IMG/VR virus record: IMGVR_UViG_3300036859_000206
Location: 1-60,276 of that record
DNA: 60,276 nt
Source: a virus
Direction: 5' to 3' (one strand)
In this document: positions 5,675-25,535 of the stretch, piece after piece
Layout of the letters: each line of letters opens with the position of its first letter
Position numbering within the stretch: the first letter of the stretch is position 1
Position numbers and translations under genes: made by a program
Notes under the pieces: generated by a model
Database searches by the model: none
The model's input: the letters and a program-made list of their open reading frames with translations, nothing else
Told to the model about the DNA's origin: nothing

Positions 5675-5899
5675 ATGAGCATCTACCGCGTCGATTTCGC
5701 CGTCACCTTCCCGCTCACGCCAGACACTGCGGAGACGCGCCACTACTTCCGTCTCGTCCAGGCCAAGACCAAGGCCGGCGCCATCGCGCACGTGGCGAAG
5801 AAATTGCTGCACGCGAGACTCGCTACGTTCGAGGATGGACGCGAGGGCGAGCGGAGTGGGGTGCGGGTGGAGGATGCTGGCGAGGAGGAAGCCGCATGA
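5675..5899 (+). CDS. Small hypothetical protein
   Basis: 74 residues. The N-terminal half is a beta-alpha unit (YRVDFAVTFPLTPDTAETRH, then a helix AKTKAGAIAHVAKKLLHARL), followed by an acidic low-complexity tail. ATG 5675 lies one base after the preceding TGA. Overlaps the ligase gene as ATGA. No family recognised. Confidence 0.65.
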   Translation: MSIYRVDFAVTFPLTPDTAETRHYFRLVQAKTKAGAIAHVAKKLLHARLATFEDGREGERSGVRVEDAGEEEAA

Positions 5900-6492
5900 G
5901 CATGGAGGCATTCACCGAGTTTGCGAAAATCGCGCGACTGTCGCGCGACATCGTGATAACGGAGAAGATCGACGGCACGAACGCGCAGGTTTACATACGC
6001 GAACTGCCTGACGACGAGGTGATGCCGACCGATACGCCGATCGTCGCTGTGCGTGGCAAGCTGCTGCTCTACGCCGGATCTCGTAGCCGTTGGATCACGC
6101 CAACCGAAGACAACTTCGGATTCGCTGCGTTTGTTCGCGACTGCGCCGACGAATTGTCCATGCTCGGACCCGGCCGTCATTACGGCGAATGGTGGGGAGC
6201 CGGCATCCAGCGTCGCTACGGGCTCAGCGAGAAGCGGTTCAGTCTGTTCAACACGCACCGATGGGCCATGGGCGCTCCTGATTGCTGCCGCGTCGTTCCA
6301 GTGTTGTACAGAGGCCCATTCTCCGAGGCAAAGATCACGGAGGCGCTTGCGCAGCTATCCGAGAATGGTTCGTGCGCCGCGCCAGGCTTCATGAAGCCGG
6401 AAGGCATCATCATCTACCACACGGCGGCCAACATGTACTTCAAGAAAACGATCTTGAAGGACGACGAGCCGAAATCGGTGTCGAAGCCATGA
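5896..6492 (+). CDS. ATP-dependent RNA ligase (Rnl2-like nucleotidyltransferase)
   Basis: 198 residues. Ligase motifs: I EKIDGTNA with the nucleotidyl-acceptor Lys24; III-like YGEWWG at 96-101; IV PEGIII at 168-173; V YFKKTI with Lys183/184. The size corresponds to a minimal nucleotidyltransferase domain; T4 Rnl2 is much longer and carries an extra C-terminal domain. Expected to seal nicked RNA or RNA/DNA. Its place directly before exonuclease and annealing genes suggests a part in repair or recombination (inference). A short DNA ligase is the alternative. Confidence 0.85.
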   Translation: MSMEAFTEFAKIARLSRDIVITEKIDGTNAQVYIRELPDDEVMPTDTPIVAVRGKLLLYAGSRSRWITPTEDNFGFAAFVRDCADELSMLGPGRHYGEWWGAGIQRRYGLSEKRFSLFNTHRWAMGAPDCCRVVPVLYRGPFSEAKITEALAQLSENGSCAAPGFMKPEGIIIYHTAANMYFKKTILKDDEPKSVSKP

Positions 6493-7481
6493 TCGACCGC
6501 CCCGGCCTCCTTTCCATCAAGCCAGCCGGCTACCCCACGCCAGCCGATTGGGAGTCCGCGTGGCACGCCGTACGCGCGCGCGTCGTGACGTCAACCGACT
6601 GCGCCGCGCTATTCGGCCTGAGCCCCTACGCGACGGCCTTCGAGCTGTGGCATATCAAGGCCGGGAATTTCCTGCCGGAGTTCGAGGAGAATGAGCGCAC
6701 TGGATGGGGCAAGGCGCTTCAAGATGCCATCGCGCACAAGCTAGCCGATGACAACAGATGGCTAGTCTATCCGTTCGACCAATTCATGTACTCCGACGCC
6801 GAACGCATCGGATCATCGTTCGATTTCCGCGGCATGTTCACATCGCCGACTGACGCCCCGGCCGTCCATTTCATCCTCGAAATCAAAAACGTCGACAGCC
6901 TCGCCTTCAAGCGCGGTTGGCAGGAAACAGACTTCGGCCTCGAGGCCCCGGCGCACATCGAGCTCCAGGTGCAGCACCAGATGGAGGTCTCCGGCATCGA
7001 CCTCGCGTACATCGGCGCACTCGTCGGTGGCAATACCGTCAAACTCCTGCGCCGCGAGCGTGATCGTGCTGTCGGCCGTGCGATCCGCGCCAAGGTCGCA
7101 GAGTTCTGGGCGAGCATCGATGCGGGGACGCCACCACCGCCGCTCATGCCGATCGACGCGCAGATCGTTTGCGCGCTCCACGGGTACTCTGACGGCTCGG
7201 TCATCAACGCCGATAAGGAGACCGCCGAACTGATGGCTCAGTACGATGCACGACGCGCTGAGGCCAAGGCTGCCGAGACCGCGAGCGAGGTGCTCAAGGC
7301 GCAGATTCTCGAACGCGTGGGACCGGCCGCGAAGGTGCTGGCCGATGGCTACACGTTGTCCGCGACTCAGGTCAAGGAGACGCCGCCGACCGTCATCACA
7401 GAGGCGATGGTGGGGAAGACGTACGGGGGCAGGAAGGGTTATCGGTTGTTCCGTGTCACTCATAAGGAAGCAGCAGAATGA
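6489..7481 (+). CDS. YqaJ-type viral recombinase (lambda-Exo-like nuclease)
   Basis: 330 residues from ATG 6489 (ATGA overlap). YqaJ/PD-(D/E)xK exonuclease features: the N-terminal TSTDCAALFGLSPYATAFEL, the ERTGWGKALQDAIA helix with a metal-binding Glu, HFILEIKNVDS giving the E-x-K pair, and HIELQVQHQMEVSG with conserved Gln/His. It should digest one strand of dsDNA ends to load the annealing protein encoded next. The C-terminal third is a coiled, Ala/Glu-rich region. Confidence 0.92.
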   Translation: MIDRPGLLSIKPAGYPTPADWESAWHAVRARVVTSTDCAALFGLSPYATAFELWHIKAGNFLPEFEENERTGWGKALQDAIAHKLADDNRWLVYPFDQFMYSDAERIGSSFDFRGMFTSPTDAPAVHFILEIKNVDSLAFKRGWQETDFGLEAPAHIELQVQHQMEVSGIDLAYIGALVGGNTVKLLRRERDRAVGRAIRAKVAEFWASIDAGTPPPPLMPIDAQIVCALHGYSDGSVINADKETAELMAQYDARRAEAKAAETASEVLKAQILERVGPAAKVLADGYTLSATQVKETPPTVITEAMVGKTYGGRKGYRLFRVTHKEAAE

Positions 7482-8308
7482 GCACTCAAGTCGCCACCGC
7501 AGGATTCGAGCGCATCGATGTCGCGTTCGCCGATCCGCGCATGCGGACCCAGCTCGCGCAAGCGATGGGCGTCAAGGTCGAGGATCCGACGCTGGATCGG
7601 TTCACGCGCGTCGTGCTGCGGGCGGTGCAGGAAAACCCTGCGTTGCTCGCGCCGTCCGTGGATCGGACCAGCATGTTCCTCGCCTGCCAGCGCGCGGCGC
7701 AGGACAAGCTCTTGCCAGATGGCCGCGATGGAAGTCTCGTGCTCTACGGCAACAAGGTGCAGTGGATGCCACAAATCCACGGCATCAGAAAGCGCGCCGC
7801 CGAGTACGGCTATTCGATCGACGCCCAGGTCGTGCACGAGAACGACGAGTTCGAGCAGATTCAGGGCGACGATCCGAAGATCGTTCATCGCGCGCCGGGG
7901 TTGGGCAAGGACCGCGGCCAGATGATCGGTGCCTACGCGATCTTCCGCGAGATCAAGACCGGCACGATCGTCCACCGCGAGGTCATGACCGCAGACCAGA
8001 TCGAATCCGTGCGCGCGTGCAGCCGCTCGAAGGACAAGGGGCCGTGGCTGTCGTTCCCGTCCGAGATGTGGCGCAAGACGGTCGCCAAGCGCGGGTTCAA
8101 GTCGGTGCCGATCTACGCGGAGGAGTTTCAGGAGATTCTCCGGCGCGGGGACGATGACTACGAATTCGTTGGGTCTGCGGTCACGGCGGGGCCGGCGGCG
8201 AAACCGACACGGCCGGCTGCCCTCGCTGCTGTCGCTGCGCAGGCGCCGGATGAGATCGAGCCGGAGCCGCCTAGCGACGTCGTGGACGATGATCCGAATT
8301 CGTTTTGA
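7478..8308 (+). CDS. recT: RecT-family single-strand annealing protein
   Basis: 276 residues. RecT features: ALLAPSVDRTSMFLACQRAA, the KVQWMPQIHGIRKRAAEYG core, and PWLSFPSEMWRKTVAKRGFK near the C-terminus of the domain, followed by an acidic Pro/Ala tail ending in DDDPNSF that resembles protein-partner tails. Forms an exonuclease-annealing pair with the YqaJ protein; the genes overlap by ATGA. Expected to anneal or recombine phage DNA. Confidence 0.93.
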   Translation: MSTQVATAGFERIDVAFADPRMRTQLAQAMGVKVEDPTLDRFTRVVLRAVQENPALLAPSVDRTSMFLACQRAAQDKLLPDGRDGSLVLYGNKVQWMPQIHGIRKRAAEYGYSIDAQVVHENDEFEQIQGDDPKIVHRAPGLGKDRGQMIGAYAIFREIKTGTIVHREVMTADQIESVRACSRSKDKGPWLSFPSEMWRKTVAKRGFKSVPIYAEEFQEILRRGDDDYEFVGSAVTAGPAAKPTRPAALAAVAAQAPDEIEPEPPSDVVDDDPNSF

Positions 8309-8490
8309 ACCCCAGAGCGTCCGAAAGGACGGGACGACCGATAGCCGACCCATCGCGGCTGCGGGAGTCCGGAGTAGCGGTGGGTACGTCGGTAATGCCG
8401 ATTGACTTCGCGGAAAGACGCGGCACCCGTGGTCAGCGAAGAGCCACGCCGGACGATGGTAACCGGCACTCACTCAACCGGAGACCCGCA
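8309..8490. other. Structure-rich intergenic segment
   Basis: 182 bases without a credible ORF in an otherwise packed operon. Predicted pairings: CGTCC-GAAA-GGACG (8318-8331, GNRA-type tetraloop), CCGAC (8345-8349) with GTCGG (8388-8392), and CGTGG (8428-8432) with CCACG (8444-8448). It would be the leader of the gene at 8491 or a small RNA. No T-run terminator follows any stem. Confidence 0.45.
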
Positions 8491-8736
8491 ATGCCCAAGC
8501 AAAAATTCACCCGCGCGAAGAAGCCGGGCTGGCCGAAAGGGAAGAAACGTGGCCCGCGTACGGCGAAGGCGGTCGCGCCGCTGTGGAAGCAGTCCGTCCA
8601 GGCGGTCGTCAAGGAGGCGGTGGCGCCTGCCGGCCGAACTGTCGACGAACTGCTCGCCGACGCAGATGCCCGTATCGCCAGCCTCACCGCCGCGCGGAAT
8701 CAGTTGGCTGAGGTGGCGAAAATTCTCGGGCTCTGA
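8491..8736 (+). CDS. Small basic protein with Gly/Lys-rich nucleic-acid-binding N-terminus
   Basis: 81 residues from ATG 8491 with GGAG 8 bases upstream. The N-terminus KKPGWPKGKKRGPRTAK resembles AT-hook-like or H-NS-family basic linkers; the C-terminal half is a coiled helix (VDELLADADARIASLTAARN). Could bind DNA as an oligomer. The longer reading from 8305 lacks a start signal and was not used. Confidence 0.65.
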   Translation: MPKQKFTRAKKPGWPKGKKRGPRTAKAVAPLWKQSVQAVVKEAVAPAGRTVDELLADADARIASLTAARNQLAEVAKILGL

Positions 8737-8738
8737 AT

Positions 8739-8921
8739 ATGACCCTCACCCTCCGCATCCAATCCGGCAGCCCGACCGACCTCTCGATCTGGCTGCGCGA
8801 GTTCGCCCAGACCATCGAGCTTCGCGGCAAGCTACTCGTCGAGCGGACGGAACCGATGCAGATTCGCAGCTCCAACGGATTGGTCGGAGTCGTGGTGGTG
8901 AAGGCGGAGGATGAGACGTGA
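8739..8921 (+). CDS. Small hypothetical protein
   Basis: 60 residues, ATG two bases after the preceding stop. Beta-helix pattern with LRIQSGSPTDLSIWLREFAQ and a Val-rich end (GLVGVVVVKAED). No family recognised. Its stop overlaps a downstream GTG as GTGA. Confidence 0.55.
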   Translation: MTLTLRIQSGSPTDLSIWLREFAQTIELRGKLLVERTEPMQIRSSNGLVGVVVVKAEDET

Positions 8922-9028
8922 GGCAGATTGGGTTGTTCGAATACGTGGACTGGCAGCCGGTGGGAGTCCGGCGAACCCTGAACGCGGTGTCCGAGTCATG
9001 CTGCAATACATCAACTCGCCGGCGCTAG
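8918..9028 (+). CDS. Tiny ORF coupled by GTGA
   Basis: 36 residues from GTG 8918, overlapping the preceding TGA: RQIGLFEYVDWQPVGVRRTL followed by a Ser/Cys/Arg-rich end. The first half looks protein-like, the second half does not and overlaps the next ORF by 31 bases. It may be a real micro-protein or chance. Confidence 0.35.
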   Translation: MRQIGLFEYVDWQPVGVRRTLNAVSESCCNTSTRRR

Positions 9029-9204
9029 AACAACAACTTCTCGCGCTCGCCAACGGCAAGCCAGGCGAACGTTACTGCATCGACGGATGCTGGTTTGAGG
9101 TCAATCCTGACGGCGAGACGTGTCGCATCATTGGGTCGCTAGGGTTTCTCTTACACGGCGAACCCGCTCCATCATCTCCGGACGATCCTCCACCGGAATG
9201 TTAG
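8998..9204 (+). CDS. Small hypothetical protein
   Basis: 68 residues from ATG 8998: MLQYINSPALEQQLLALANG, then CIDGCWFEVNPDGETCRI, a likely beta hairpin with three Cys. Last gene of the rightward early operon. Its final 77 bases overlap the 3' end of the convergent 1921-residue gene, so the Pro-rich C-terminus may be less constrained. No terminator is visible between the two. Confidence 0.55.
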   Translation: MLQYINSPALEQQLLALANGKPGERYCIDGCWFEVNPDGETCRIIGSLGFLLHGEPAPSSPDDPPPEC

Positions 9205-12200
9205 GCAGCGCCGAGCGCACTGATCGCAGCAAGGCTGGTCCGAGCTTGTACTGCTTGCGCTCTTGCTCGCTGGCCATGTCCCACGCCTTGATCTTCTGGT
9301 TCAACGGAAGACGAGCAAAGCGGATCGCAGGAACATCTTGATGGGCCTCTGTCCGCAGGTTTTTCACCTGACGTGGCGACAATCCATTGAGGTCTGGAAC
9401 CTCTCCAGCCTTCACCTTCGCCAATTCTTCCTTGAAGCGGTCAGACCGCTCGGCCATCTCCGCGGTACGAGCGCCTTGCGGAAGGGTGTCGAAGTAGCGC
9501 TCAGCGACGTAATCCTGGAAGGCCGTGCGCGACACGTTAGCCGGCGCCGGCGTAATCCCAACGAACGGTGCGACCTTGGCGGCCAACCCTTCGCCAGCCT
9601 TGGCGTTCTTCGCCGCACCCTGCACTGAGTACGGAAGGAACGACTTCGCCATGTACGTGAGGAATTGCTGCACCTCGCGCGGAATTGGATCTTCCGGATT
9701 GAAAATCTGGTTCCCGTAGAAGTCCTTGTTCGACAGCATTTCCGACATCATGGAGAGCGTCGGGTGAAGTTTGTGCTTTAGCGTCTCCACCGGATGCCGC
9801 GAGAACTGCCACTCGTCCTTGACGTATGACGGGAAGGACACACGCTCAGGTGAGCCGTCAGGATTGGTTCGCCCGGTCTTGGGGAAGAAATAATCCTTTG
9901 GCTCCTCTGGGCCTTTGCCAGTGAGAAGCTGCTGTGTCATCGCGCCCATGATGGCCACGGTCGCGTTCAGCGTGATGAGATACGACAGCCGGTTCGACAT
10001 GCGCGCCATGCGCTCATTCGTGACTGTTCCTGCCTTGCCCAAAGGACCGAGATATTCCTCCGGTTTTGCGATACCTTTGACGTCGCTGAGTGAGCCGAAA
10101 ATCAGGCGCAGCGTACCAGCGTTCCAGCCGACCGACTGCACTGACGTATGCAGTGCATCGCGCACCGTCCGATGCCAGAACAGGTTGTCATACGTGAACT
10201 GCCCCAACCGATCGTCGACGTCGGCATTCACCTTGGCGGCGATCTGTCGCATCACATCCGGATTCAGCGCATCGACCGTGCCAGCGTAGTCGCTGGCCTC
10301 CTCGCCGAGCTTCGGCGCGAGCCGTTCGAGTTCGAACTTTGCCAGCATCACGCGAGCCATCATCTTCTGCGCCGGGACCAACCGATGCGCGATCAGCCGC
10401 GTGGTCGACTCGATCAGCGCCGGGAGCGCCTTGCGCGTGGCTGCCGCGGTATCGCCCTGCCGGTACGCGCGGATCGCGGACGTGAAGTCGTTGTTGTACT
10501 CGGTCGACGACATGCGCGCTCTGGCGCCACCTTGGTCGAGGAAGTGGAAGATCGCCTGCATTTGCGGATCGCTGGCTTCCTCGCCGAGATACTGCTTGAG
10601 CAGCGACGCTCCCTTGCCCTTGCCGGCGATCGCCTGCAACGTGTGCGGGATCGCGAGCGCGGCGTCGGCGAACGACTTCATCGACGAGCCGAGATCACCC
10701 TTCGCGAGATAGCGCCAGCCGAGATCTAGGTTCGAGGCCGCCGAGTCGAGCGTGGTCATGCCCGCGTGGAACGCCGAGAGGCCGAGCCGCGCGCTCAGCA
10801 TCATGTTCTGGAACCAGCGGAACGAACGCCACGCCTGGAACTGCCCGAGGCCCTGCGCGAGATGGTTGTTCAGGTCGCGCGCCACGAGGTCCGGTGCGAG
10901 CACGCCGCGGAAGGTCGGATCGTTGACGCGCGAGTAGCCTTGAGGGATCCGCGCGTCGGGGTCGTCCTTGCGGAGCCAGCCGCGCTGCTCGAGCTCGTTG
11001 CGCCAGCGAAGTGAGGCGATCAGCTTCTCGCCGGACTGGTAGCGCGCCATGAAGGCGTCCATCGGGTTCAGCGACGCCGGTTCGAGCCCGGCTTTGATGC
11101 CTTCCTCGTAGTCCTCGTAGAACCTTTGCCTGGTGAACGCCTTGTCGCCAGCGAGGGGGCGCTTGCCGGCGATAGTCTCGAACACGGAGGCCACGCGCTC
11201 GACGGGATCCTTCCACAGCTGGTGCCAGTAGTTCTCGCGCAGGTTCGGCAGATACTTGCCGGCCGGATCCTGCTTGCGGAGATCGTCGTACTGACGGTCG
11301 AGCAAACGGTCGCCGAGATCGATCGCCTGACGAGATACTGGATCGGTGACGGCCTCCTTGCCGCCGCGCTGGAACGCGATGATGTCCTTGTAGGCCGCGA
11401 GCGCCAAACCCTGCCCTTCGAGCCCCTGCTTGCGGAGCTCGCCGACGCGCTTGTCCAGGTGGGTGCGGAAGTCGTCGACCGCAGAGTCCGCCTTCGCGAC
11501 GTTGCGCGCTTGCTCCGCCATCGTGGCCCGGCCGATACCGCGGCCAATCTCGCGCTGGCGCTCGGCGGTCACGGCATCGATCGCGGCAGCGGCCTGGCGC
11601 ACGTCGGCGACGCTGTACAGCGGGCCAACGCGATCCACGCCAGCCATGCTGAGCTTGCTGCCATCGGCGCGCTTCACATGCCGCGCCGCTCGAGCGACCA
11701 GCGCACGAGCCTCAGCCTGCGTGAACTGGATATCCAGCCCCAGCGTCTCGCGCGCGAACCGACGCATCGCGGCGACCACGCGATCGAGCACTGAGGCGTC
11801 GACACCGCGCTCGGCCATGACCGCGAGCGCCTCGCGCGCGAACAGCGCATCGTTGGCGCCGCGATAGCGCTCACTGGCTGAGGCTACGGCGTCGCGGATG
11901 GCGGGTGCGAGTCGTTCCGGGTGCGTGCGCCAGTCGGCGAGCTGGGTCTCGATCGCGGCCCAGGTCTTCTCGCCCGTGATCGCCTCGACCCCGAAGTGGC
12001 CGACTTGCTCGTGCGCGATGATGGACTGTGCGTGGCGCGCGTCGCGAATGTTGTCGCTGACGAGATAGACCTTGCCGTTGTCGAGGTCGGCGTAGCCAGC
12101 GGCGTCAGCGCGGTGCGGCGTGCCGTCAGGTAGCGCGGGAAGATCAGCGGCGGACTTGACGACGACGGTCTCGAGCGCGCCTGGGCGGGCGGCAGCGTAT

Positions 12201-14893
12201 TTCTCGATCGCTGCGTGGTGCTCTGGGGGGCGCTCGGCCTTTGGCTGTTCGCCGGCGTGGTACAGCGGCTCGCCCTTGGCCTTCGCGAACGCAGCCTGCA
12301 TCGCTGTCGGCGGCGGCTCCTCGACACCGGCTGCCTTGCCCTTCGCGATCTCGGTAGCAACGCGCTCGTCCTGCGCGGCTGACTCCAGCGCAGCGAACTG
12401 CTCCGGCGTCTTCGCGCGGTCGGCCTTCTCCTGCGCCGCGAGCTCGGCCTGCCGCTTCTCGAATGCAGCGTCGGTCTCGCCCTTCTTGCGGACGGCCGCG
12501 ACTTGCTTCTCGAAAACTTTGTTGGCGAGGCCGGTGATCTCGGGGTCGGCTGGCTTGGCCGGCGCCGGCGCGGTTACGCGTGCTTCTGGGGCTGCGGCTT
12601 GGACTGGACGGGACTCTGCTCGTCGTTCACCACTTCCAGCTTCGACCCCGGCGGCAGCGTTGCCGCCCAATCCCCGAACGTCATCCCCTGCATGTCCCGA
12701 ACGGGGGTTGACCCCGAGCTTGGCGGCTTTGTTGGCCTTGGCTGCGGCGTTGGCTTCGGGGACGTCTTTGCCGATTCCATAGCTCAGTCCTAGGTTGGTG
12801 ACTTGCTCCACGCGCCCATCGGGCAGCGTGACCTTGATCTTGAGGCTCCCAATTGCAGTTTGGAGCGCCTTTCCGGCCTTTTCAAGCTCAACCGGATCAG
12901 CGGCATTCGTAGCGTGAACGATCTCGTCGCCACCGATCCCGTAGACCTTGCCGGGCAGATGCTCAGCGGCCACCGACATGATGCGGTGGAGCACCTGATC
13001 GCCGCCCTCCTGCCCGAGTCGGTCGTTGACGTTCTTGAAGCGGTCCAAGTCCATGAACAGCATCGGCCCAGAGACATTGCCGCTCTCGACGTCCTTCTTC
13101 AGGCCGCGCAGGTTCCGCATACCATCGATCGGCTCGCCCATCACTTGATGGGTCGTGAGCGCGTTCTCGATGGCCGCTGCGTGGGCCTCCGGCGTGATCG
13201 GCTCTACCGGCCGCGCCCCGACCTCCGGCTGCGCTCCGGCCCGCTCACCGGCGCCTGCCCCGGCTTGCGCTGGCTGTTGTAGATCTTGGCGACCGACGTC
13301 TTGGCCTGCTTCGCTGGGACGCCCTTGGACTCCAGCTTGTCGCGGATTTTCTCGTACTTGATCGATGGCATTCGTGGTCTCCTTCGTGATGGACGGAGAT
13401 GCCGGCGGCTCATTCGCCGGCACCCCCTCGCCTGTGGTCAGCCCTTCAGCCCCACGTACGGGCGCTGGCTCCGTTTGGGCGGCGCCCTGCGTCCATTCGC
13501 CGGTGCCTTGGACTTTTTCGCCTTCACGGATCACCTCCTTCGGTTGTGCGGCGCCCGGCTCGCTGGCTGGCGTGACCTTGGCCGCGTTGGGATTACGCAA
13601 CACCCACTGATCCTTGCCGACGCTGACGACATCGTAGCCGGGGTTCTTCGCTGCGGCCTTGTTCGCGGCTTCGACGTTCCTGAACGGGTTTCCGTTCTTG
13701 TTCAGGATGTCGTTCTGGCTGGCGAGTAGTTCGTCGGCGTCGCGGCGGAGCGCTTCGTAGGAGTTCGGACCGCCAGGCTCAGCCTTCGCGTGGAGCGCTT
13801 CCTGCGTGACCGCCGCGACGTTCGCCGCCTCGGACATGGAGCCTGGAGTCGCCTCGGGATGTGGAACATTAGCCGGAGGTTTCACAGGCGCGGCGCGTCC
13901 GTGGAACAGTGAACCGAACCCGCCGGCGAGCCCGCCGAACGCCGCGCCGGCCGCTGCTGCGCCGCCAGATCCTTCACCGATGTCGCGCGTCTCGCCGGTC
14001 GCCCTGTTGGCCGCCGCGATCTCAGCTGCGTTCTGGCCGACGCCGACGCCAGCGTTCAGCGCCGCATCGGTCATGCCGCCGGCCAGCGCGCGCGGAAGGA
14101 GGCCCTCGCCGACGACCTTCGCCAGCGCCGATTGGACAGGGCGAGCGAATGGTAGGCCGAGAACCATACCGCCGACGCCGCCAGCGATCGACCCTGGAAC
14201 GAACGACCCCTCACCCGCTGCCTTGGCCACGGTCTCGCGAGCGGCGCCTGGAGAGGCTCCTGCTGCGATCTCGGCGGTATAGGCCGGAACCTTCTGGAGC
14301 TCGTCGAACGGCATCGAGCGGATTCGCTCGCCCTCGTGCTCGAGCGCGGCACCGCCGCCGGTTGCGGCCCCGACCGCGCCCATCGTCGCCAGCTGGGTCG
14401 GGACAGACGCGCCGCGCGTTAGGACTGCGGCGCCAATGAACGGGGCCGCGCCGCCAAGAATCTGAGCCGCCTGACCCGCCGCACCCCGCAACGACGGATC
14501 GCCGCGGAAGTGGAGCGACTCGCCCTTGAGGATGTTGCCCTCAACGCCGGTATCGGCAGTGGCCTGAGAGAACTCCGGGCTGACCGACTCGGCGAGTCCG
14601 GCACCCTTGGCCTGGAGCCAGTCTGCCGGCGTGTTCAGGAAGTTGCCGGCGCGCAGGCCCACCGCGGCGGCGATCGGTGCGGCGACCATCTTGGACGCTT
14701 CGCCGAAACCGCGCAGCGCCGAGCCGGTCCCGCTGACGAGCGCTGATCCGGCAGTCTTGGCTACGTCAGCGAGGTCGTCGGTCACGCCGCGTGGCTGGTC
14801 TGAGATGACGGGACCACTGTACGGCTCCAGCTTAGGCCGCGCGAACGTCGCGGTGTCCGGCACCACTTCACCGTCGTATGGCTTAAATTCCAT
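9128..14893 (-). CDS. Giant virion (polyvalent-type) protein with GGDEF-like and HExxH motifs
   Basis: 1921 residues. Order: N-terminal Ala/Gly-rich hydrophobic segments to about 330; Gln/Pro linker; a GGDEF-like domain from about 570 with MDLDRFKNVND (about 613-623), GDQVLHR, GIGGDEI (about 652-658) and a late AAAKANKAAKLG helix; a second charged linker; a zincin motif HEQVGH at 961-966; then a long helical C-terminal half (from about 1100 to 1921) of the kind seen in large polyvalent or ejection proteins of podoviruses. Last gene of the late operon. Likely packaged and injected. The GGDEF signature has Ile for Phe and lacks the usual preceding Arg. Enzymatic activity is unproven. Confidence 0.75.
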   Translation of the reverse strand: MEFKPYDGEVVPDTATFARPKLEPYSGPVISDQPRGVTDDLADVAKTAGSALVSGTGSALRGFGEASKMVAAPIAAAVGLRAGNFLNTPADWLQAKGAGLAESVSPEFSQATADTGVEGNILKGESLHFRGDPSLRGAAGQAAQILGGAAPFIGAAVLTRGASVPTQLATMGAVGAATGGGAALEHEGERIRSMPFDELQKVPAYTAEIAAGASPGAARETVAKAAGEGSFVPGSIAGGVGGMVLGLPFARPVQSALAKVVGEGLLPRALAGGMTDAALNAGVGVGQNAAEIAAANRATGETRDIGEGSGGAAAAGAAFGGLAGGFGSLFHGRAAPVKPPANVPHPEATPGSMSEAANVAAVTQEALHAKAEPGGPNSYEALRRDADELLASQNDILNKNGNPFRNVEAANKAAAKNPGYDVVSVGKDQWVLRNPNAAKVTPASEPGAAQPKEVIREGEKVQGTGEWTQGAAQTEPAPVRGAEGLTTGEGVPANEPPASPSITKETTNAIDQVRENPRQAGVQGRPSEAGQDVGRQDLQQPAQAGAGAGERAGAQPEVGARPVEPITPEAHAAAIENALTTHQVMGEPIDGMRNLRGLKKDVESGNVSGPMLFMDLDRFKNVNDRLGQEGGDQVLHRIMSVAAEHLPGKVYGIGGDEIVHATNAADPVELEKAGKALQTAIGSLKIKVTLPDGRVEQVTNLGLSYGIGKDVPEANAAAKANKAAKLGVNPRSGHAGDDVRGLGGNAAAGVEAGSGERRAESRPVQAAAPEARVTAPAPAKPADPEITGLANKVFEKQVAAVRKKGETDAAFEKRQAELAAQEKADRAKTPEQFAALESAAQDERVATEIAKGKAAGVEEPPPTAMQAAFAKAKGEPLYHAGEQPKAERPPEHHAAIEKYAAARPGALETVVVKSAADLPALPDGTPHRADAAGYADLDNGKVYLVSDNIRDARHAQSIIAHEQVGHFGVEAITGEKTWAAIETQLADWRTHPERLAPAIRDAVASASERYRGANDALFAREALAVMAERGVDASVLDRVVAAMRRFARETLGLDIQFTQAEARALVARAARHVKRADGSKLSMAGVDRVGPLYSVADVRQAAAAIDAVTAERQREIGRGIGRATMAEQARNVAKADSAVDDFRTHLDKRVGELRKQGLEGQGLALAAYKDIIAFQRGGKEAVTDPVSRQAIDLGDRLLDRQYDDLRKQDPAGKYLPNLRENYWHQLWKDPVERVASVFETIAGKRPLAGDKAFTRQRFYEDYEEGIKAGLEPASLNPMDAFMARYQSGEKLIASLRWRNELEQRGWLRKDDPDARIPQGYSRVNDPTFRGVLAPDLVARDLNNHLAQGLGQFQAWRSFRWFQNMMLSARLGLSAFHAGMTTLDSAASNLDLGWRYLAKGDLGSSMKSFADAALAIPHTLQAIAGKGKGASLLKQYLGEEASDPQMQAIFHFLDQGGARARMSSTEYNNDFTSAIRAYRQGDTAAATRKALPALIESTTRLIAHRLVPAQKMMARVMLAKFELERLAPKLGEEASDYAGTVDALNPDVMRQIAAKVNADVDDRLGQFTYDNLFWHRTVRDALHTSVQSVGWNAGTLRLIFGSLSDVKGIAKPEEYLGPLGKAGTVTNERMARMSNRLSYLITLNATVAIMGAMTQQLLTGKGPEEPKDYFFPKTGRTNPDGSPERVSFPSYVKDEWQFSRHPVETLKHKLHPTLSMMSEMLSNKDFYGNQIFNPEDPIPREVQQFLTYMAKSFLPYSVQGAAKNAKAGEGLAAKVAPFVGITPAPANVSRTAFQDYVAERYFDTLPQGARTAEMAERSDRFKEELAKVKAGEVPDLNGLSPRQVKNLRTEAHQDVPAIRFARLPLNQKIKAWDMASEQERKQYKLGPALLRSVRSALPNIPVEDRPEMMERVRRVRETLATQ
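13204..13371 (-). CDS. Small gene nested out of frame in the giant virion gene
   Basis: 55 residues. ATG 13371 has AAGGAG about 8 bases upstream. MPSIKYEKIRDKLESKGVPA plus KQAKTSVAKIYNSQRKPGQ looks like a natural basic helical protein, while the main frame here encodes only a Gln/Ala/Gly linker. Ends RSRRSGRGR. Nested placement inside a linker and the strong ribosome-binding site argue that it is real, but no homologue is recognised with certainty. Confidence 0.5.
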   Translation of the reverse strand: MPSIKYEKIRDKLESKGVPAKQAKTSVAKIYNSQRKPGQAPVSGPERSRRSGRGR

Positions 14894-14896
14894 TGC

Positions 14897-16444
14897 TCAG
14901 CCGCCGACTACCTGCTTGCCGTTCTTGTCCTTGTAGACCGGCTTGCCGTCCGGCGTCGATCCCACGCGCGTATAGCCCTCTGGCACGCTCTTGCTGGCCG
15001 CAGCCTCTGCCAGACCGCTGAGCTGCCGCGCGAGCGCGTGTTCCTCCTCACTGGGTGCCTGCAACGGATCGTACTGGCCGAGCTTAAGTTTCTCCTGATA
15101 GATCTTCAGGAAGTTATTCTGCGACTCGGTGTTCTTGGTCGACTTGAGCGGCTGGCCCTTCTCGTCCTTGATGAGCGAGGTGGCCCCGCCGCGGAGGAAA
15201 TACTGGTTGCCCTCGGAGTCGGCGACGACCTGACCGCGGTTGCGCGCCTCTTGCTCCGCGAGCGAGGTCCGCTCGGCACGGTTGAGCGCGCCCTCGCTGA
15301 CGTCCACGCCGAGCCTCTCGCCCAGTCGGCTGGTATCGCCCGCCTGTCGCAGCTGCTCGCCGGTGAGCCCGAGGCGTCCGGCGAAATCCTGGGATCCCTG
15401 GTTGATATGTTCGTGCAGGAATTGTGCTGCTAGGGTCTTGCCCGTGCGCGTAGTGTCCTTGCGGAGTTCGGCGTAGATCGAACCGGCAGCGCTGCGCGGG
15501 TCCTGAATCTCTGACAGCCTCGAATCGCGCAGACGTGCGGCATTGGCGACATCGGCATTCGGGTCGTAGGTGGGACGCTGGAATGACGCCGCGCGCTCAG
15601 CCGGTACCCGATTTGCCGCCGCGGTGTATTCCGGACTACCCAGCGGAATGCCTGCCGCGCCGGACGCCGCAGCATCGGACGGCACATAGCTCACCGCGCC
15701 ATTGTTCTGAAGGGCAGCAATGTCTGACCCGCTCATGGTTTGCGGAATGCCGCCACGCGCGAAGTCGGAGAATACGCGTACGCCGTTGATGGTCTGGCCA
15801 TAGCCCAAGTCTCGGCCTGACACCGATGTCGCGTTCGCCGACGGAATGGCTGGAGCCGGAGCGCCGTAACCACCGCGCAGGTTGATCGGCGGGCCCGCAA
15901 ACTGGTCCGGCGCAACCGCTGGCTTTACCGGGCTTACAGGCGCTGGAGCGGCCGGCATTACGCCACCACCGCCTCCGCCGGACACGGCGCCTACAGCGGC
16001 GGGCGCAGCTCCGTTACCTCCTCCGCCGGACACTCCGAAAAGACCCCTAGCGACATCCGCCGCAGTACGTGCCACCATTTTCCCTGGAGCGCTGGCCAAA
16101 TCGTTCACGGCTCCGATGGACCGCCCCAGCAATGGGACGCTGGCTCGCACATCTGCGCCTAAGCGATAGGCCGGTGATCCAGTCGGCGATGCTCCCGCCG
16201 TTACCGGACCCGGTGCGTCGATAATCGTAGCTGGGCGCGCAAGCGATGCTGCTCGAGCTTCAGGCGATGACAAGCCACCAGGAGGGGCAGTCCGCTGGAA
16301 TTGCGGCATCGGGATGGCAGCGTCGGCGCCAATGGCGGTCGCTGGAATCCCCGATGCAACGCCACCGCGATAGTCGGGGCGAGAGAATTCGGCAAGCCGC
16401 CCGGCTGAACGGCGCCTGCGATCCTCATCGGTCATCGTCGCCAT
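14897..16444 (-). CDS. Ala/Gly-rich virion protein, probable ejection protein
   Basis: 515 residues. ATG 16444 overlaps the preceding TAA as TAATG and has GGGGAG upstream. The N-terminal half is low complexity with runs of Gly (SGGGGNG, SGGGGGGV), Ala and Pro. The C-terminal half is helical and charged, with LHEHINQGSQDFAGRLGLTG and a Lys-rich end (YKDKNGKQVVGG). Sits between a coiled-coil virion protein and the giant protein, the usual place of podovirus internal or ejection proteins. No specific family recognised. Confidence 0.5.
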   Translation of the reverse strand: MATMTDEDRRRRSAGRLAEFSRPDYRGGVASGIPATAIGADAAIPMPQFQRTAPPGGLSSPEARAASLARPATIIDAPGPVTAGASPTGSPAYRLGADVRASVPLLGRSIGAVNDLASAPGKMVARTAADVARGLFGVSGGGGNGAAPAAVGAVSGGGGGGVMPAAPAPVSPVKPAVAPDQFAGPPINLRGGYGAPAPAIPSANATSVSGRDLGYGQTINGVRVFSDFARGGIPQTMSGSDIAALQNNGAVSYVPSDAAASGAAGIPLGSPEYTAAANRVPAERAASFQRPTYDPNADVANAARLRDSRLSEIQDPRSAAGSIYAELRKDTTRTGKTLAAQFLHEHINQGSQDFAGRLGLTGEQLRQAGDTSRLGERLGVDVSEGALNRAERTSLAEQEARNRGQVVADSEGNQYFLRGGATSLIKDEKGQPLKSTKNTESQNNFLKIYQEKLKLGQYDPLQAPSEEEHALARQLSGLAEAAASKSVPEGYTRVGSTPDGKPVYKDKNGKQVVGG

Positions 16445-18330
16445 TAGGACAACTCCCCTGTTAGCGTGTACTGAGTCTCGCAGCTCTGCTGGTCGCTTCG
16501 CGTCGATCCAACACTAGCAGATGCATGCATGGCGGACAACGCAGCCGCGGCGAGGTTTGAGCTTACCTGCGCCAGCGTCTCCTTGTCGCGCAAGAGCAGG
16601 TTGGCAATCTGGATCGCTTGCTGCACATTGATTTCAGCGGACTTGAGCGCCCCGTCTACCTTCGCGCGCTCTTTTTCGACCAAGAGCTGGAATTGACGGT
16701 TGTCCGTCTCGGCGCTGGCCTGGGCAATTTGGCCGTCAGCCACATAAAGCTGGGTTAGCCCCTGGAAGATCTGGACTTGTGCATTGACCCGATCACGCTC
16801 GGCTTGGATGTCGGCAATCAAGCGTTGGACTTTGCCGAGCCAGATGCGCAGCGCCTGGTCTTGCTCATCGATGAGGAGACGTTTTTGAGCGATCAACGAA
16901 GCGTTGGTTTCAGACCACGCGGCGACTCGCCCACGGAAGGCGTTGACGGCGGATTCGTAGATACGTGCCTTGATCTCCTCGATGGTCGCCTTGGCCTTGA
17001 ACCCTTCCCACTCGGCGACGTAAGCGCGAACGCGCTCGCCGTATGCCTCCACCTTGTACTTGTACCCTTGGAGGATCGTGGCGTTCGCCTCGGCCTCAAT
17101 CTTCCTCGCATTCACCCGTTCGCCGTAATACTCGATCAGCGCCTTCACGGCTTCGGTCTGAGCCTTGTAGCGTTCCACGAGGTCTTTGTTGATCTCACCG
17201 ATCAGCCGCTGCGCGTCAATCTGCGCTTTCAACACCTCGACCTTGGCGAGTTCACCACGGATACGGATTTCGTATACCTGTGCCTGCACTGCGAAAGCGC
17301 GATTCTGCGCATCGAACAGCGCGACACGCGCCTCGAAGATCCGGACGGAGACATCAAACGTGACCTTGGCCGCATCAAGCAACCGCTGTTGCCTGGAATT
17401 GAACAGCTGAATCAGCTGGCCTTCGAGACTGATCCCTTGCGTCACCGCGAACTTGACGTTCTCGATCGCGATCTTGCGCACTTCGATCAGGTTCTCGCGC
17501 AGGAGACTCGAACGCTTGTTCTGCCCGTCCTGCCGAATCGTGGCAAGGCGCTTGGCTAGGATGCCGCTTGGCTCGCTGAACCCGCGCGCGGCGTATTCCT
17601 CGGTGGTCTCGTCGAGTGCTCGGTTGATGCCCTCTTCCTCGCGCGCGGCGGCGCGGTCGTACAAGGCTTGCTCAATCGCTGCTGGCAACCCCGTCGTCCC
17701 GCCGATCATCTCCGTAATCTTTGACTGGAGCGTGGTCAGCATCGTCGTGGTGTATTCACCCTCCTGATAGTTGAACGTCTGCCCAGGCGCAGTGAAATCC
17801 ACGGTCGGTGCTACGGCCGTGAACGTCGGCAACGTGATCGTTGGGAAATCCGGCAGGGTGATCGGCAGGAAGATCGGTGATTCCGGCAGAACGACGTCCG
17901 GCTCATCTGGCATGATCGGCACACTGATGATCGGCGGATCGCCGGGGTCCGTGGCGGTCAGATTCCCAGGCTGACCGCTGATGTTGACCGATGGCACCGG
18001 AGGCAGGTTATCCGGAGGCGCTGGCCCGAAGTTCACTTGCCCAACCGGATTGAACGCCAAATCTCCTGGGTCGTTCAGATTTCCACTGTCGTAGTGGATT
18101 TTCGGCTCGTCAGGGCGATTCGGCGTATTGAATCCGCCCAAATCAGGATTGATGTCAAACGATGCGTTGAAGTTGAACGGCTGGATCGTGAAAGCCGATA
18201 GATCGGTGATCGCGGCCTGCGCCATTGCGAACATCGACGAGCCATACGTCTGGAATGTGCCCCATGCGTTGGCTGCCAGGATGACGGCCGGATCGCCGAT
18301 CAGATTAGGACAACTCGGTGCGGTAGCCAC
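16444..18330 (-). CDS. Long coiled-coil virion protein
   Basis: 628 residues from GTG 18330, chosen because AGGAG lies 6-7 bases upstream; the longer reading from TTG 18357 lacks a site. Residues 1-170 are Pro/Asp-rich and beta-like (PDEPDVVLPESPIFLPITLP). Residues 190-600 are almost continuous helix and coiled coil (for example YGERVNARKIEAEANATILQ). Likely a virion rod, tail-associated or ejection protein. Next to the terminal structural genes of the late operon. Not assigned to a named family. Confidence 0.55.
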   Translation of the reverse strand: MATAPSCPNLIGDPAVILAANAWGTFQTYGSSMFAMAQAAITDLSAFTIQPFNFNASFDINPDLGGFNTPNRPDEPKIHYDSGNLNDPGDLAFNPVGQVNFGPAPPDNLPPVPSVNISGQPGNLTATDPGDPPIISVPIMPDEPDVVLPESPIFLPITLPDFPTITLPTFTAVAPTVDFTAPGQTFNYQEGEYTTTMLTTLQSKITEMIGGTTGLPAAIEQALYDRAAAREEEGINRALDETTEEYAARGFSEPSGILAKRLATIRQDGQNKRSSLLRENLIEVRKIAIENVKFAVTQGISLEGQLIQLFNSRQQRLLDAAKVTFDVSVRIFEARVALFDAQNRAFAVQAQVYEIRIRGELAKVEVLKAQIDAQRLIGEINKDLVERYKAQTEAVKALIEYYGERVNARKIEAEANATILQGYKYKVEAYGERVRAYVAEWEGFKAKATIEEIKARIYESAVNAFRGRVAAWSETNASLIAQKRLLIDEQDQALRIWLGKVQRLIADIQAERDRVNAQVQIFQGLTQLYVADGQIAQASAETDNRQFQLLVEKERAKVDGALKSAEINVQQAIQIANLLLRDKETLAQVSSNLAAAALSAMHASASVGSTRSDQQSCETQYTLTGELS

Positions 18331-18340
18331 GGGATTCTCC

Positions 18341-19570
18341 TCAGAGCCTGCGCTCAAGAACCATTGGGTACAACTCTACGACATCGAGCTCGAAATCGGC
18401 CCCATCCTTGTTGCTAATCTCGAAGGCCCAGTACACCGACTTCAATCCTCTGCCCACCTTGATCCGGCCGCTGCGCATGGCTGGCGCGTCTTGATCGACT
18501 TGCTCGTACCACCATTCGATTTTTTGGCCAGCTTCGTTGACGCTAACGACCTTGAGTACCATCTGGCCATCGGATCGGTAGCCGAGATAGGCCGAGGTGA
18601 TGCGCTTTTGCAACCCAGTCCCAAGATTTGTCATTCCGGTTCGCAGGCTGCTCGATATCGCTGTGCCAGCGTCGTCATCGCCCTCAAGAAGGTAGATTCC
18701 GGTCTCTGCGCAGCCGTAATATTTGCCCTCGAATTCGGCGAACGAGTTGAAGTTGAAGTTGCTATACTGGTACGCGGCAGCGGTCTGCGTGTTAAGAACC
18801 CAAGCGTCGTAGACATCACCCTCAGTTTCCAGCGTAAGCGCAACGTTGATGCCCTCTGACAGTGCCACCGTGAGCGCCTGGAACACGCCAGCCACATCGT
18901 TGACGTTGACCGTTTCGAGATTCAGGACTGTCATTGTCCCTAGGTCGCCAACAACGTCTGCCAGAGCCGCTGCTGCCGCAACCGCCTGAACCGCCAGAAG
19001 CACATGAGTCGGGGTGCCGGTGACGGCCGCAGAATCGCTGGTCAGGACAAAATACCCGGCCTCGATGCTGTCGCCGGTGATCGCCGTTGCTGCAACGCTT
19101 TGCAGATAGTTGCCGGTCATCGCCAGTGCGTCAGCCAGCGCGGCAGAATCGGCGACCTCCTGAAGCGCCGTTACGATGGACGAGAGCGATGCGGACCAGT
19201 CAGCCGTCGCGCTCGTCGACACCGTGATCTCTATGGCCACGCTTTCTCCGGCAGCTGCTGTGTCGGTCAATGGATAAGATTGCGTTGCGGTATGAACCAG
19301 CGCTGCGGTCAGTGCAATGGCATCTGTCAGCAATGCCGCCATGATGGTCGATACGGAAGCCACAACGGCAACCGACTCAGAAACCGGAACGGAAATCTCA
19401 GCTGCAAGCCCGTCTGATGTGCCGGCGGCCGTACTGCTGAGCAACGCAGCCCAATCGATCAACATGCCTGTGGTGCTGGCCGCGCTGGACGATAGCTGCG
19501 TGGCGAGCACGATAGTCATGCTGTCGGAGCCATCCGCAGCGTCGTTCAGATCTTCGTCGTACGAAGGCAT
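18341..19570 (-). CDS. Phage structural protein with Ala/Ser-rich repeats
   Basis: 409 residues. The N-terminal 220 residues are low-complexity helical repeats built of Ala, Ser, Thr and Val. The C-terminal 170 residues form a compact domain: YQYSNFNFNSFAEFEGKYYG, ETGIYLLEGDDD, SAYLGYRSDGQMVLKV, EWWYEQ, VGRGLKSVYWAFEISN, a block recurring in uncharacterised phage virion proteins. Probably tail or baseplate-like. Stop is 10 bases before the next GTG start. Confidence 0.6.
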   Translation of the reverse strand: MPSYDEDLNDAADGSDSMTIVLATQLSSSAASTTGMLIDWAALLSSTAAGTSDGLAAEISVPVSESVAVVASVSTIMAALLTDAIALTAALVHTATQSYPLTDTAAAGESVAIEITVSTSATADWSASLSSIVTALQEVADSAALADALAMTGNYLQSVAATAITGDSIEAGYFVLTSDSAAVTGTPTHVLLAVQAVAAAAALADVVGDLGTMTVLNLETVNVNDVAGVFQALTVALSEGINVALTLETEGDVYDAWVLNTQTAAAYQYSNFNFNSFAEFEGKYYGCAETGIYLLEGDDDAGTAISSSLRTGMTNLGTGLQKRITSAYLGYRSDGQMVLKVVSVNEAGQKIEWWYEQVDQDAPAMRSGRIKVGRGLKSVYWAFEISNKDGADFELDVVELYPMVLERRL

Positions 19571-19573
19571 TTG

Positions 19574-19855
19574 TCACCACCTCGACTGCGGGCATTGGCT
19601 CTTGGCTAGCCACGTCTTAACCGACATCTTACATCCGCATCCACCTTGCTTGCGGTCGCACATCCCGGCATCCGTAAGCAAAGGACAGGCTTGGCAGATG
19701 CTTAGCCTTCGGTCCCGTTCCGCCGCAGGAACCATGATTGCCGATGGGCGCGAGCGTGCCTTAGCGATGCTGGCAGCATGACGGAGCCTGTGCAGGCGCC
19801 GGTTGAGGCCCTTCCACTGCCATTCTGTCCAGCGCAAAAGAAGCGTGCTCAGCAC
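19574..19855 (-). CDS. Small Cys-rich zinc-binding protein, paralogue A
   Basis: 93 residues from GTG 19855. An N-terminal Trp/Arg helix precedes RRLSICQACPLLTDAGMCDR and GGCGCKMSVKTWLAKSQCP, six Cys arranged as a zinc knuckle. The last 47 residues match the 48-residue protein at 23035-23181 in spacing and sequence (ERxRRLxIC, GCGC/CGC, CPxxxW). Such small proteins interspersed with tail genes have unknown roles, possibly assembly factors. Confidence 0.65.
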   Translation of the reverse strand: MLSTLLLRWTEWQWKGLNRRLHRLRHAASIAKARSRPSAIMVPAAERDRRLSICQACPLLTDAGMCDRKQGGCGCKMSVKTWLAKSQCPQSRW

Positions 19856-19858
19856 GGG

Positions 19859-22441
19859 TCAGATTCCAGTCGGTCGATACAGATCGTACAATGGCCAGAT
19901 CGGGTAGAACGAGAGGTCGGTGTCGCCGGCCCCTAGCGCTGGATCATCCCATCCAACCAGAACGCCAGGCTCTTGGCCATTGGACAAAACGTTTTTGTAC
20001 GCCTGCTCGGTTTCCGAGAAGCCCCACGGGATGCTCACGAAGTGAGCCTTGTTGTAGAACATCGAGGTTGCGCCAGCGTAGTTGACAATCTGCACTTGCG
20101 GATGGACCCGCAACATCCATGTGATTGGACCAGCGCCTGGCTTTGGTAGTCCAATGCCGTTGTTGCTCCAAAAATCACCGACCGCAGTCTCGGTTGGGTT
20201 GGAGACCGGCGAGGGCACGAAAAAGTCGTACAGATCCAGGTCTGGTGTCTGGTGTGATTCGTCATACGCATCGCCAGGATCGCAATACGTTGTCGGCTCT
20301 GATCCATCCGAGAATCGAATCGTGGTCAACCAATTCTCAGGATACGTGTGGCTCGATCCGCTGATCGGTGTGGTATCAGAATCCGTCACCGTGTCCACGG
20401 CTGACTCATACGAGATATCGCCTACGAGCAAAACGTATTTGCGGTCAGCCGATTGGCTTATGGACGAAGATCCAGTTGATGTTGTCTGAAACCCATCGGT
20501 ATCGAAATCGTCGCCAGACCCGGATGTTTCAACCGACAGACCATCTGTTCTAGTATGGACCTCCTCAATGTAGGCGTAGACCCGGTTTCTCGGATCGATA
20601 TGTATGGTCGGTCTTCGCGTGGTCGTCACGGTCGATGATCGTTCTTGCGTCGAGTCATAATCGTACGCGGTCTCGAAATCATCACCAGGGCGTAACGTGC
20701 AGGTCGGTGCGAATGCCGTACCCACAACGCTGGGCAGAGCATTGTTATCCAGCGTGAATGTGGTCGTGATGGTTTCACTGCCGGTTTCGGTGCGTTGATA
20801 CAGCAAGATCTCGTCGGTGCACGCTCCGCTGAAGGATAGATAATGCCGTTCGAGTTTGGTCGTGTCGATCTGAGTACCAAGATTGTTTGCGACGTTTAGA
20901 TGGTAGTTAACCTCCACCATTGGAAAATTGTCGCCGCCATCTATTGTGGCTTGGCAGGTGGCCGGCAGGTCGCACAATGACGATTGATCGCCGCTTTGCG
21001 TGAATGTTGGAATGCCGTCGGTTATCGTGGTCACGATGTCCGCAGATGCTTCGATCCGCAGATGGGCCTTTATCAGCACGTCTTCCTTGTAATCGTAACC
21101 GACTAGGTAGGTCTCCTGCGCCGCGTAATAATCGTGCCCGTTTCCGTGTGATATCACGTTTCCTAATGGAATGCCGAAGGCGCACACGCAACCATCACGA
21201 CAATCCTCACCGCCTTGGATGCTGTGGAATATAGTTACCGGCATGCATTCCTGCTGGGCTATCGGCAGGTAGTCGACGTATTCCGTGTCCGTAGGAGCCA
21301 CATCCAGATCAACCTCCTCGAACACTACCGCATCGACGGTACTGAGATGCGCTCTAACGCCGTAGGGCTGATTTCCGCGCGCCGCTTGGCCATCGATGAC
21401 GCAAAAATGCGCCTCCGTACATGAGGCATTGAACGCCGCGTGATGGATCGGATTACCGGCCTCGCTATCGTAGGTGCCTAAGTCAATGCGATTGCGCGCT
21501 ACGTATTTGCGTTTCCCGCCAGCTATTTCGGCGGCCGTCGGCGGCCCTAACTCCCAGCGGAACATATGCACTTGACTTGAGCCGTACCAATCGCAGGCCA
21601 GTACGAAAAGGTAGGACTCACTGGAGCTGATCCTACGAACGGCGGCGCCCATTACCAGAAAGCCGGAACCACTTGCAGGCGTTCCACCGTCACTCGGTGG
21701 ATATGATGTGTCATCCAGAACGGCTATGCCGCGGAACCAAACGGCCGCAGTGTTGTATCCGCTCGCAATGTTGTAATTGTCGCCGTCGATGGTGACGATT
21801 AAGCTGTCCCCACCCCAGCCTTTGTTGCCGAAGTAGCGGGTCGACGCTACCCCATACCAAGTGCAACCAAGGTGCTCGCGTTGCTTGCCGACCCAGTCTT
21901 TGTTCCCGCCCTGAAGATACGGGTATTCCAGCTTCCTGCGGCCACAACCAGGGTCAACCGTCTTGTATTCGCCAAGCGTAAAGCCTTCTGGCGGTGAAAG
22001 ATTGAGCGTTGCGGCTGACCAAAAGTATGGCTTGTAACTGGGGCCTTGCGTCGTTGTACCGGAACCTTTGATTCGCAGCAATACTTCAACCCGCCTTAGC
22101 GGATCATCCGGGTGGTAATCAGGCCAGTCCGCTTGGAATAAACCAAGGCTGGTGCTGTTCTCCATTGGCACGCACACGAACCCCTCGAGAGCTTGCGGCG
22201 CGCACTCCTCGGCCGCTTGCAGCGCAGTCACGTCGATTTGGATGATCGGTATGCCACCGGCCACCCGTACAGTGTACGTAACCCCGTACGATGTCTCTAT
22301 CGTGCGACTGCCAAAGCCGAGTCGGCCCAGGCGCATGCGCTGCACCAATTCGCCCAAGTAACCGCGCGCTTCCGGAATGAACCGTTCCGCCAGCGCGCGG
22401 TCGCCAACAAAACGTTTGGCGACCCAGCCGGTGTAGCGCAT
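19859..22441 (-). CDS. Large phage structural protein, unknown
   Basis: 860 residues. ATG 22441 with GGTGAAGC just upstream. A short helical N-terminus (MRYTGWVAKRFVGDRALAER) is followed by an all-beta, Gly/Asp/Thr/Tyr-rich sequence with repeated Ser/Thr stretches (ERSSTVTTTRR, STGSSSISQ) and scattered Cys. Composition and position between tail genes suggest a tail hub, tail spike or propeller-type protein. No catalytic motif or family recognised. Confidence 0.5.
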   Translation of the reverse strand: MRYTGWVAKRFVGDRALAERFIPEARGYLGELVQRMRLGRLGFGSRTIETSYGVTYTVRVAGGIPIIQIDVTALQAAEECAPQALEGFVCVPMENSTSLGLFQADWPDYHPDDPLRRVEVLLRIKGSGTTTQGPSYKPYFWSAATLNLSPPEGFTLGEYKTVDPGCGRRKLEYPYLQGGNKDWVGKQREHLGCTWYGVASTRYFGNKGWGGDSLIVTIDGDNYNIASGYNTAAVWFRGIAVLDDTSYPPSDGGTPASGSGFLVMGAAVRRISSSESYLFVLACDWYGSSQVHMFRWELGPPTAAEIAGGKRKYVARNRIDLGTYDSEAGNPIHHAAFNASCTEAHFCVIDGQAARGNQPYGVRAHLSTVDAVVFEEVDLDVAPTDTEYVDYLPIAQQECMPVTIFHSIQGGEDCRDGCVCAFGIPLGNVISHGNGHDYYAAQETYLVGYDYKEDVLIKAHLRIEASADIVTTITDGIPTFTQSGDQSSLCDLPATCQATIDGGDNFPMVEVNYHLNVANNLGTQIDTTKLERHYLSFSGACTDEILLYQRTETGSETITTTFTLDNNALPSVVGTAFAPTCTLRPGDDFETAYDYDSTQERSSTVTTTRRPTIHIDPRNRVYAYIEEVHTRTDGLSVETSGSGDDFDTDGFQTTSTGSSSISQSADRKYVLLVGDISYESAVDTVTDSDTTPISGSSHTYPENWLTTIRFSDGSEPTTYCDPGDAYDESHQTPDLDLYDFFVPSPVSNPTETAVGDFWSNNGIGLPKPGAGPITWMLRVHPQVQIVNYAGATSMFYNKAHFVSIPWGFSETEQAYKNVLSNGQEPGVLVGWDDPALGAGDTDLSFYPIWPLYDLYRPTGI

Positions 22442-22451
22442 GCTTCACCGA

Positions 22452-23024: not shown

Positions 23025-23034
23025 GTTTCTCTCC

Positions 23035-23181
23035 TCACCACTTGTTGATAGGGCAATGCAGTACGCGCACACGCGTTCGCAGATTGATCGAACAACCGCA
23101 CTTCAGACACACGTTCACCGCGCCGCGCCGCAGGAACTCACAGCTCTCGCAGATCGCCAGCCGTCGCTCGCGCTCGGTCAC
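23035..23181 (-). CDS. Small Cys-rich zinc-binding protein, paralogue B
   Basis: 48 residues from GTG 23181, which overlaps the upstream TGA as GTGA. ERERRLAICESCEFL, NVCLKCGCSINLRTR, VLHCPINKW: six Cys in the same arrangement as the C-terminus of the 93-residue protein at 19574-19855. The pair probably arose by duplication or both belong to one phage family. Function unknown. Confidence 0.7.
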   Translation of the reverse strand: MTERERRLAICESCEFLRRGAVNVCLKCGCSINLRTRVRVLHCPINKW

Positions 23182-25174: not shown

Positions 25175-25180
25175 GCGGGA

Positions 25181-25510: not shown

Positions 25511-25535
25511 GTTGATCTCCAGTCGGTTGAAGAAA

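Follow-up and report, generated by a model that had tools for sequence, protein, structure and literature searches.

The locus studied here, a stretch of viral DNA of 60,276 nucleotides (IMG/VR record IMGVR_UViG_3300036859_000206, positions 1 to 60,276; 'the window' below), raises the question of whether a phage could carry a diguanylate cyclase into its host within a giant virion protein. The original prediction, made from the letters alone, was that a 1921-residue late protein carries GGDEF-like motifs and a zinc-peptidase motif, and that a c-di-GMP-modifying or protease activity could thereby be delivered at infection.

The gene and its GGDEF domain

The gene occupies the minus strand as one uninterrupted frame of 1921 codons, the plus strand of the same interval having stops throughout. 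The gene and the domain of main concern are:

9128-14893, minus strand: gene for the 1921-residue polyvalent protein (ATG-to-stop open frame; end of the virion module)
12689-13186, minus strand: GGDEF domain, residues 570-735 (PF00990 profile, AlphaFold2 model, PDB cyclase matches, alignment)

The cyclase-type motifs first quoted are all present in the translation, MDLDRFKNVND at residues 614-624, GDQVLHR at 631-637, GIGGDEI at 652-658 and ANKAAKLG at 720-727. Residues 608-703 match the Pfam GGDEF profile PF00990 with an E-value of 6.2e-8 (33.0 bits against a curated gathering cut-off of 23.8). PHROG families lacking a functional assignment also hit this segment, NCBIfam cyclase models match the domain (best E 4.7e-10) but under the models' own cut-offs, and the solved cyclases TpbB and DosC match in phmmer at about 1e-6. 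AlphaFold2, run on the alignment of 34 domains described below, gave a model with a pLDDT of 90.7 that matches solved cyclases across residues 574-726, the best PDB match having a Z score of 17.2 (4zmm, rmsd 1.9 over 139 residues), and Foldseek of this model returned GGDEF proteins only among the PDB matches listed. The claim of a GGDEF domain thus came through both a profile search, in which the curated cut-off was exceeded, and structure prediction, in which the fold resembled that of solved diguanylate cyclases; on this profile and model evidence residues 570-735 are a genuine GGDEF-fold domain with the cyclase palm fold. That the motifs are chance matches in an Ala/Gly-rich protein, a reading favoured by the compositional bias of the flanks and by nothing else, can be dismissed given the curated profile match, the confident fold and the 33 relatives that align across the domain.

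Active-site residues

Three segments of the domain carry the residues of interest:

13022-13054, minus strand: MDLDRFKNVND, residues 614-624, with metal-site Asp 615 and guanine-site Asn 623 (alignment)
12920-12940, minus strand: GIGGDEI active-site hairpin, residues 652-658, with metal-site Glu 657, I658 and G652 (alignment)
12701-12730, minus strand: final helix of the GGDEF domain, residues 722-731; K722 is Lys in 34/34 and R731 is Arg in 33/34 (alignment)

By comparison with PleD we take D615 and E657 to bind metal, N623 and D632 to belong to the guanine site and K722 to the phosphate site, and in the alignment all five are kept in the window domain. Relatives were found by scanning IMG/VR with a small GGDEF alignment, and an alignment was built from 33 of them and the window domain. 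As the search pattern was DxDx[FL]Kx[VI]ND, the invariance of DxDxFKxxND in the relatives does not count as evidence; lying outside that pattern are G655, E657, G706 and K722, invariant in all 34 domains, together with R731 and D656 (33/34 each) and D632 (31/34). Fold and catalytic residues are as in PleD, WspR, DgcB and TpbB. In bacterial diguanylate cyclases the usual motif is R-x-GGDEF, the usual partners are receiver or sensory domains, and an inhibitory RxxD site is present in many. No RxxD is found five residues ahead of the GGDEF motif in any of the 34 aligned domains, and the product c-di-GMP would therefore not be expected to shut off a cyclase of the window type.

The two deviations pointed out in the original prediction are real. 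The window copy is without an intact GG(D/E)EF motif, since Ile 658 replaces Phe (GGDEI), and G652 stands at the position of the Arg of bacterial cyclases. The relatives have His or Arg two residues ahead of a motif that is mostly SGDEF (as at loci L067 and L075), where the window has GIGGDEI, so that the window copy deviates at I658 (for Phe), G652 (for the His/Arg of the clade) and Q628 (for His). These substitutions, together with a long branch in the tree described below, suggest that the window copy may have decayed, and the alternative that survives best is that it is degenerate, binding GTP or acting as a folding or packaging module and making no c-di-GMP while its clade relatives are active. 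About a quarter of cyclases carry degenerate motifs and some of these act as receptors, but the bacterial enzymes with AGDEF (VCA0965) and SGDEF (ECA3270) are active despite the altered first motif residue (PMC3974145), and the recognised metal-, guanine- and phosphate-binding residues are all kept in the window copy. No published test of Phe to Ile in the motif was found. We regard degeneracy as possible but rather unlikely; judged from sequence, the chance that the window copy is an active cyclase is about even, and that the phage branch as a whole is active somewhat higher than even.

A further reading accepts catalysis and changes its product: the domain would make another cyclic dinucleotide, or a decoy nucleotide that blunts CBASS/Panoptes-type immunity, and would not act on motility or biofilm. 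The palms of GGDEF, Cas10 and mCpol proteins have a common fold, and phage proteins that sequester Panoptes nucleotides trigger Panoptes (PMC12657218); interference with host nucleotide responses is also proposed by Iyer et al. (2017). However, the guanine-specific Asp 632 is kept in the window domain, where the promiscuous Bdellovibrio enzyme has Ser (PMC10333796). We consider this reading improbable and retain c-di-GMP as the expected product of an active domain.

A phage-specific branch

Almost all of the aligned relatives (31/33) sit in ORFs of 1000-4100 aa. In a tree that included 33 domains from bacterial genomes, these being the best GTDB-genome matches to the phage profile, the phage giants, a solo Yuavirus protein and the window domain split off together with support of 100/99; in an earlier tree with other comparators the phage/bacterial split had support of 99/92. 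In the second tree no phage sequence has a longer branch than the window domain (1.52), whose position inside the phage group is therefore uncertain and which may be evolving faster or decaying. Single-sequence scans of IMG/VR gave no close relatives of the whole protein, of its C-terminal part or of its GGDEF part, and a scan of the same kind with the C-terminal part gave none in GTDB genomes. The Yuavirus protein (gp43 of Pseudomonas phage MP1412) lies on this branch with the window domain, likewise lacks RxxD and has a similarly shortened loop ahead of the last helix; unlike the window domain, gp43 is a free-standing protein of about 156 aa and not part of a virion polypeptide.

Giants with the phage-type GGDEF also bear the polyvalent domains LPD38, LPD22, LPD1, ART-PolyVal or InPase, and among the genes adjoining other GGDEF giants are families of tail, virion and endolysin proteins. 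At two loci (L066, 7711-9705; L070, 7798-9675) the GGDEF lies in frames of 626-665 aa flanked by frames of 800-900 aa, an arrangement that looks like a polyvalent protein split into separate genes. The GGDEF of a further giant (L133, 8914-9483), which has the motif RIGGEEF and a long branch, falls among bacterial-type domains in the first tree, the one of the two in which it was included, and this suggests a second, independent capture.

The HExxxH metallopeptidase domain

The second recognisable domain lies towards the C-terminus from the first:

11654-12226, minus strand: zincin-like metallopeptidase domain, residues 890-1080 (matches to giant proteins, alignments, AlphaFold2 model)
11996-12013, minus strand: HEQVGH, residues 961-966, HExxxH zinc motif (invariant in 26 sequences)

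HEQVGH had been placed correctly at residues 961-966, but its label HExxH was rejected, as three residues separate the Glu from the second His. The domain matches giant proteins of two named phages, and it has matches at 53 viral loci. Across 26 aligned sequences there is no variation at H961, E962, H966, E1021 or E1028, the last two being candidates for the third zinc ligand, and HExxxH followed by a Glu in a later helix is the arrangement seen in the HEXXXH zincin-like peptidases of polyvalent proteins. The AlphaFold2 model is fairly confident (pLDDT 87.1) and zincins (3e11, IrrE/PprI, lethal factor and MATCAP among them) make up most of its nearest PDB neighbours, all of them weak with Z no higher than 6.3; the sequence had no significant match in PDB or Pfam, and Foldseek of the model gave no match with E below 0.001. 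Because the structural matches are of this strength, the zincin assignment comes mainly from the motif and from the HEXXXH peptidases of polyvalent proteins, which Iyer et al. (2017, PMC5512222) propose to cut the polypeptide into units. The domain is better read as a self-processing HExxxH metallopeptidase than as the delivered protease effector first suggested. PF00990 had no match in 50 phage records, nearly all of which carry the same peptidase family, so that the GGDEF domain is dispensable for the peptidase lineage and an interchangeable unit within it.

The rest of the polypeptide and collinear viral giants

Two further regions have homologues among viral giants:

13769-14806, minus strand: Gly/Ala-rich N-terminal region, residues 30-375 (BLASTP to giants with the same peptidase)
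9335-11536, minus strand: C-terminal region, residues 1120-1853 (collinear with other GGDEF giants)

Residues 30-375 match the giant protein of Achromobacter phage CF418P1 (BLASTP E 6e-12) and many viral giants as well. The window protein resembles five IMG/VR giants (L068, L075, L077, L088 and L105) in its GGDEF, peptidase-region and C-terminal homology, residues 530-780, 836-1117 and 1120-1853 being wholly or partly collinear with them; over residues 1120-1853 the identity is 27-31%, with E-values of 1e-54 to 1e-69 computed, as for the other collinear regions, against small sequence sets. These five proteins are larger, at 2631-4023 aa against 1921 aa. All five contain InPase, with RadC in L068 and LPD1 in L077, and Pfam finds none of these three in the window protein. 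InPase as a partner driving the cyclase was considered and rejected as not specific, since it occurs in 11/34 GGDEF giants and in 36/52 peptidase-bearing giants (10/32 and 9/23, respectively, after removal of near-copies).

The virion module and probable packaging

The genes upstream of the giant gene form a virion module:

14897-33746, minus strand: rest of the virion module, ahead of the giant gene (PHROGs, Pfam, homology to Burkholderia phage JC1)
32106-33746, minus strand: TerL (PHROGs/Pfam; JC1 homology)
28978-31380, minus strand: portal, P22-type (PHROGs/Pfam; JC1 homology)
26093-27199, minus strand: major capsid protein, Phage_capsid_3 (PHROGs/Pfam; JC1 homology)
23178-24536, minus strand: head closure (PHROGs/Pfam)
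16444-18357, minus strand: phrog_10969 protein (PHROGs/Pfam)

TerL of this 60 kb record is related to those of Bcep22-like and other podoviruses, and TerL, portal and capsid share 37-49% identity with their JC1 counterparts. The giant gene is the last of the module, and after it comes a frame of 97 codons (8911-9204) on the opposite strand. A like arrangement is found in JC1, in which the last virion gene encodes the 4515-aa DarB-like gp69 and a pair of small, oppositely oriented genes comes next, the Bcep22 homologue being likewise a giant in this position. Mass spectrometry of CsCl-purified JC1 virions detected 51 unique peptides of gp69 and gave it the second-highest score (PMC9144972). BLASTP finds no similarity between gp69 and the window protein, and the JC1 genome has no GGDEF match. 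For this reason packaging is argued from gene position and from one viral giant (L073), which combines a phage-type GGDEF with 37% identity to gp69; the L073 giant, at 6070-18351 of its locus, also carries InPase. At four other loci (L080, L089, L093 and L105) the giant is preceded by homologues of the window genes at 18341-19570 and 16444-18357.

The original prediction is borne out in that a true GGDEF-fold domain lies in a large polyvalent protein encoded where the virion module ends, and this combination, by analogy with JC1 gp69, makes it likely that the protein is packaged and injected. That it is instead a late product acting inside the producing cell alone is, in our view, unlikely: the gene sits at the module's end, gp69 in the same position ranks so high among JC1 virion proteins, and giants of the polyvalent class typically adjoin virion genes.

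Elsewhere in the window, genes for a YqaJ-type recombinase domain (6282-7481, plus strand), RecT (7478-8308, plus strand) and an RNA ligase domain (5896-6492, plus strand) are transcribed away from the virion module, and the genes at 51996-53660 and 56039-57553 (both minus strand) encode proteins with a VapE-like domain and with DUF6745, respectively. Long antisense frames at 26078-27394 and 27531-28862 (both plus strand), opposite the capsid and scaffold-position genes, are probably a by-product of the 63% G+C content. An Rfam search of the window found no c-di-GMP riboswitch, its sole match being a tRNA-Gly (anticodon tcc; 46954-47025, minus strand).

Proposed function

From the fold, clade, residue retention and genomic context established for the window protein we infer packaging, injection, cleavage, catalysis and a host effect in the following way. 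The polyvalent product would be an ejection protein, synthesised late by a Bcep22-like podovirus, packed into its particles and carried into the host along with the phage DNA, as gene position and relatives suggest. The HExxxH domain probably cleaves the polypeptide into units, and the released unit (residues 570-735) would bind GTP and, as a dimer, probably make c-di-GMP. The host would be pushed early in infection toward high c-di-GMP, which could halt motility or change the surface, for instance against competing phages; interference with host nucleotide signalling would be an alternative effect. The whole explanation, in which a polyvalent protein is injected, cleaves itself and through its GGDEF unit synthesises c-di-GMP free of feedback by the product, seems to us evenly balanced between right and wrong.

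Much of this framework is already known. In the 2017 paper GGDEF domains in polyvalent proteins had been proposed as injected cyclic-nucleotide enzymes and polyvalent HEXXXH peptidases had been described, and among its examples a prophage protein of Acetonema longum (WP_004096050.1) combines, like the window protein, GGDEF and a zincin-like metallopeptidase in one giant near virion genes (Iyer et al., 2017, PMC5512222). Phages with a stand-alone GGDEF protein are known as well, the Bordetella Vojvodinavirus phages being further examples; Bordetella lysogens of a phage with such a protein make more biofilm, although causation was not established (PMC8471281). With GGDEF and HExxxH peptidase in one 1921-aa polypeptide beside virion genes, the window protein belongs to the polyvalent class, and differs from the GGDEF polyvalents of the 2017 paper in having far fewer recognisable domains (Pfam finds no SWI2/SNF2, methyltransferase or ART). 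New here is this smaller polyvalent protein with GGDEF and HExxxH domains. We found no description of the phage branch, of its absence of RxxD or of its frequency in viral giants in the literature searched, which was mostly that outside subscription journals, and as far as we could find there, the cyclase activity of the branch has apparently never been assayed. More broadly, there may be a feedback-free branch of phage cyclases packed in the virions of many phages within cleavable polyvalent proteins and delivered before phage gene expression, a generalisation that we put forward tentatively and rate somewhat short of an even chance.

If the domain is active, host c-di-GMP would be changed at phage entry and not after gene expression. 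The receptor glycan of phage N4 in E. coli is under c-di-GMP control (PMC8669472), so that competitor adsorption, motility or biofilm could be influenced by such an enzyme. The conserved phage branch offers a compact domain of about 165 residues, and with it a test of the 2017 proposal on polyvalent GGDEF domains.
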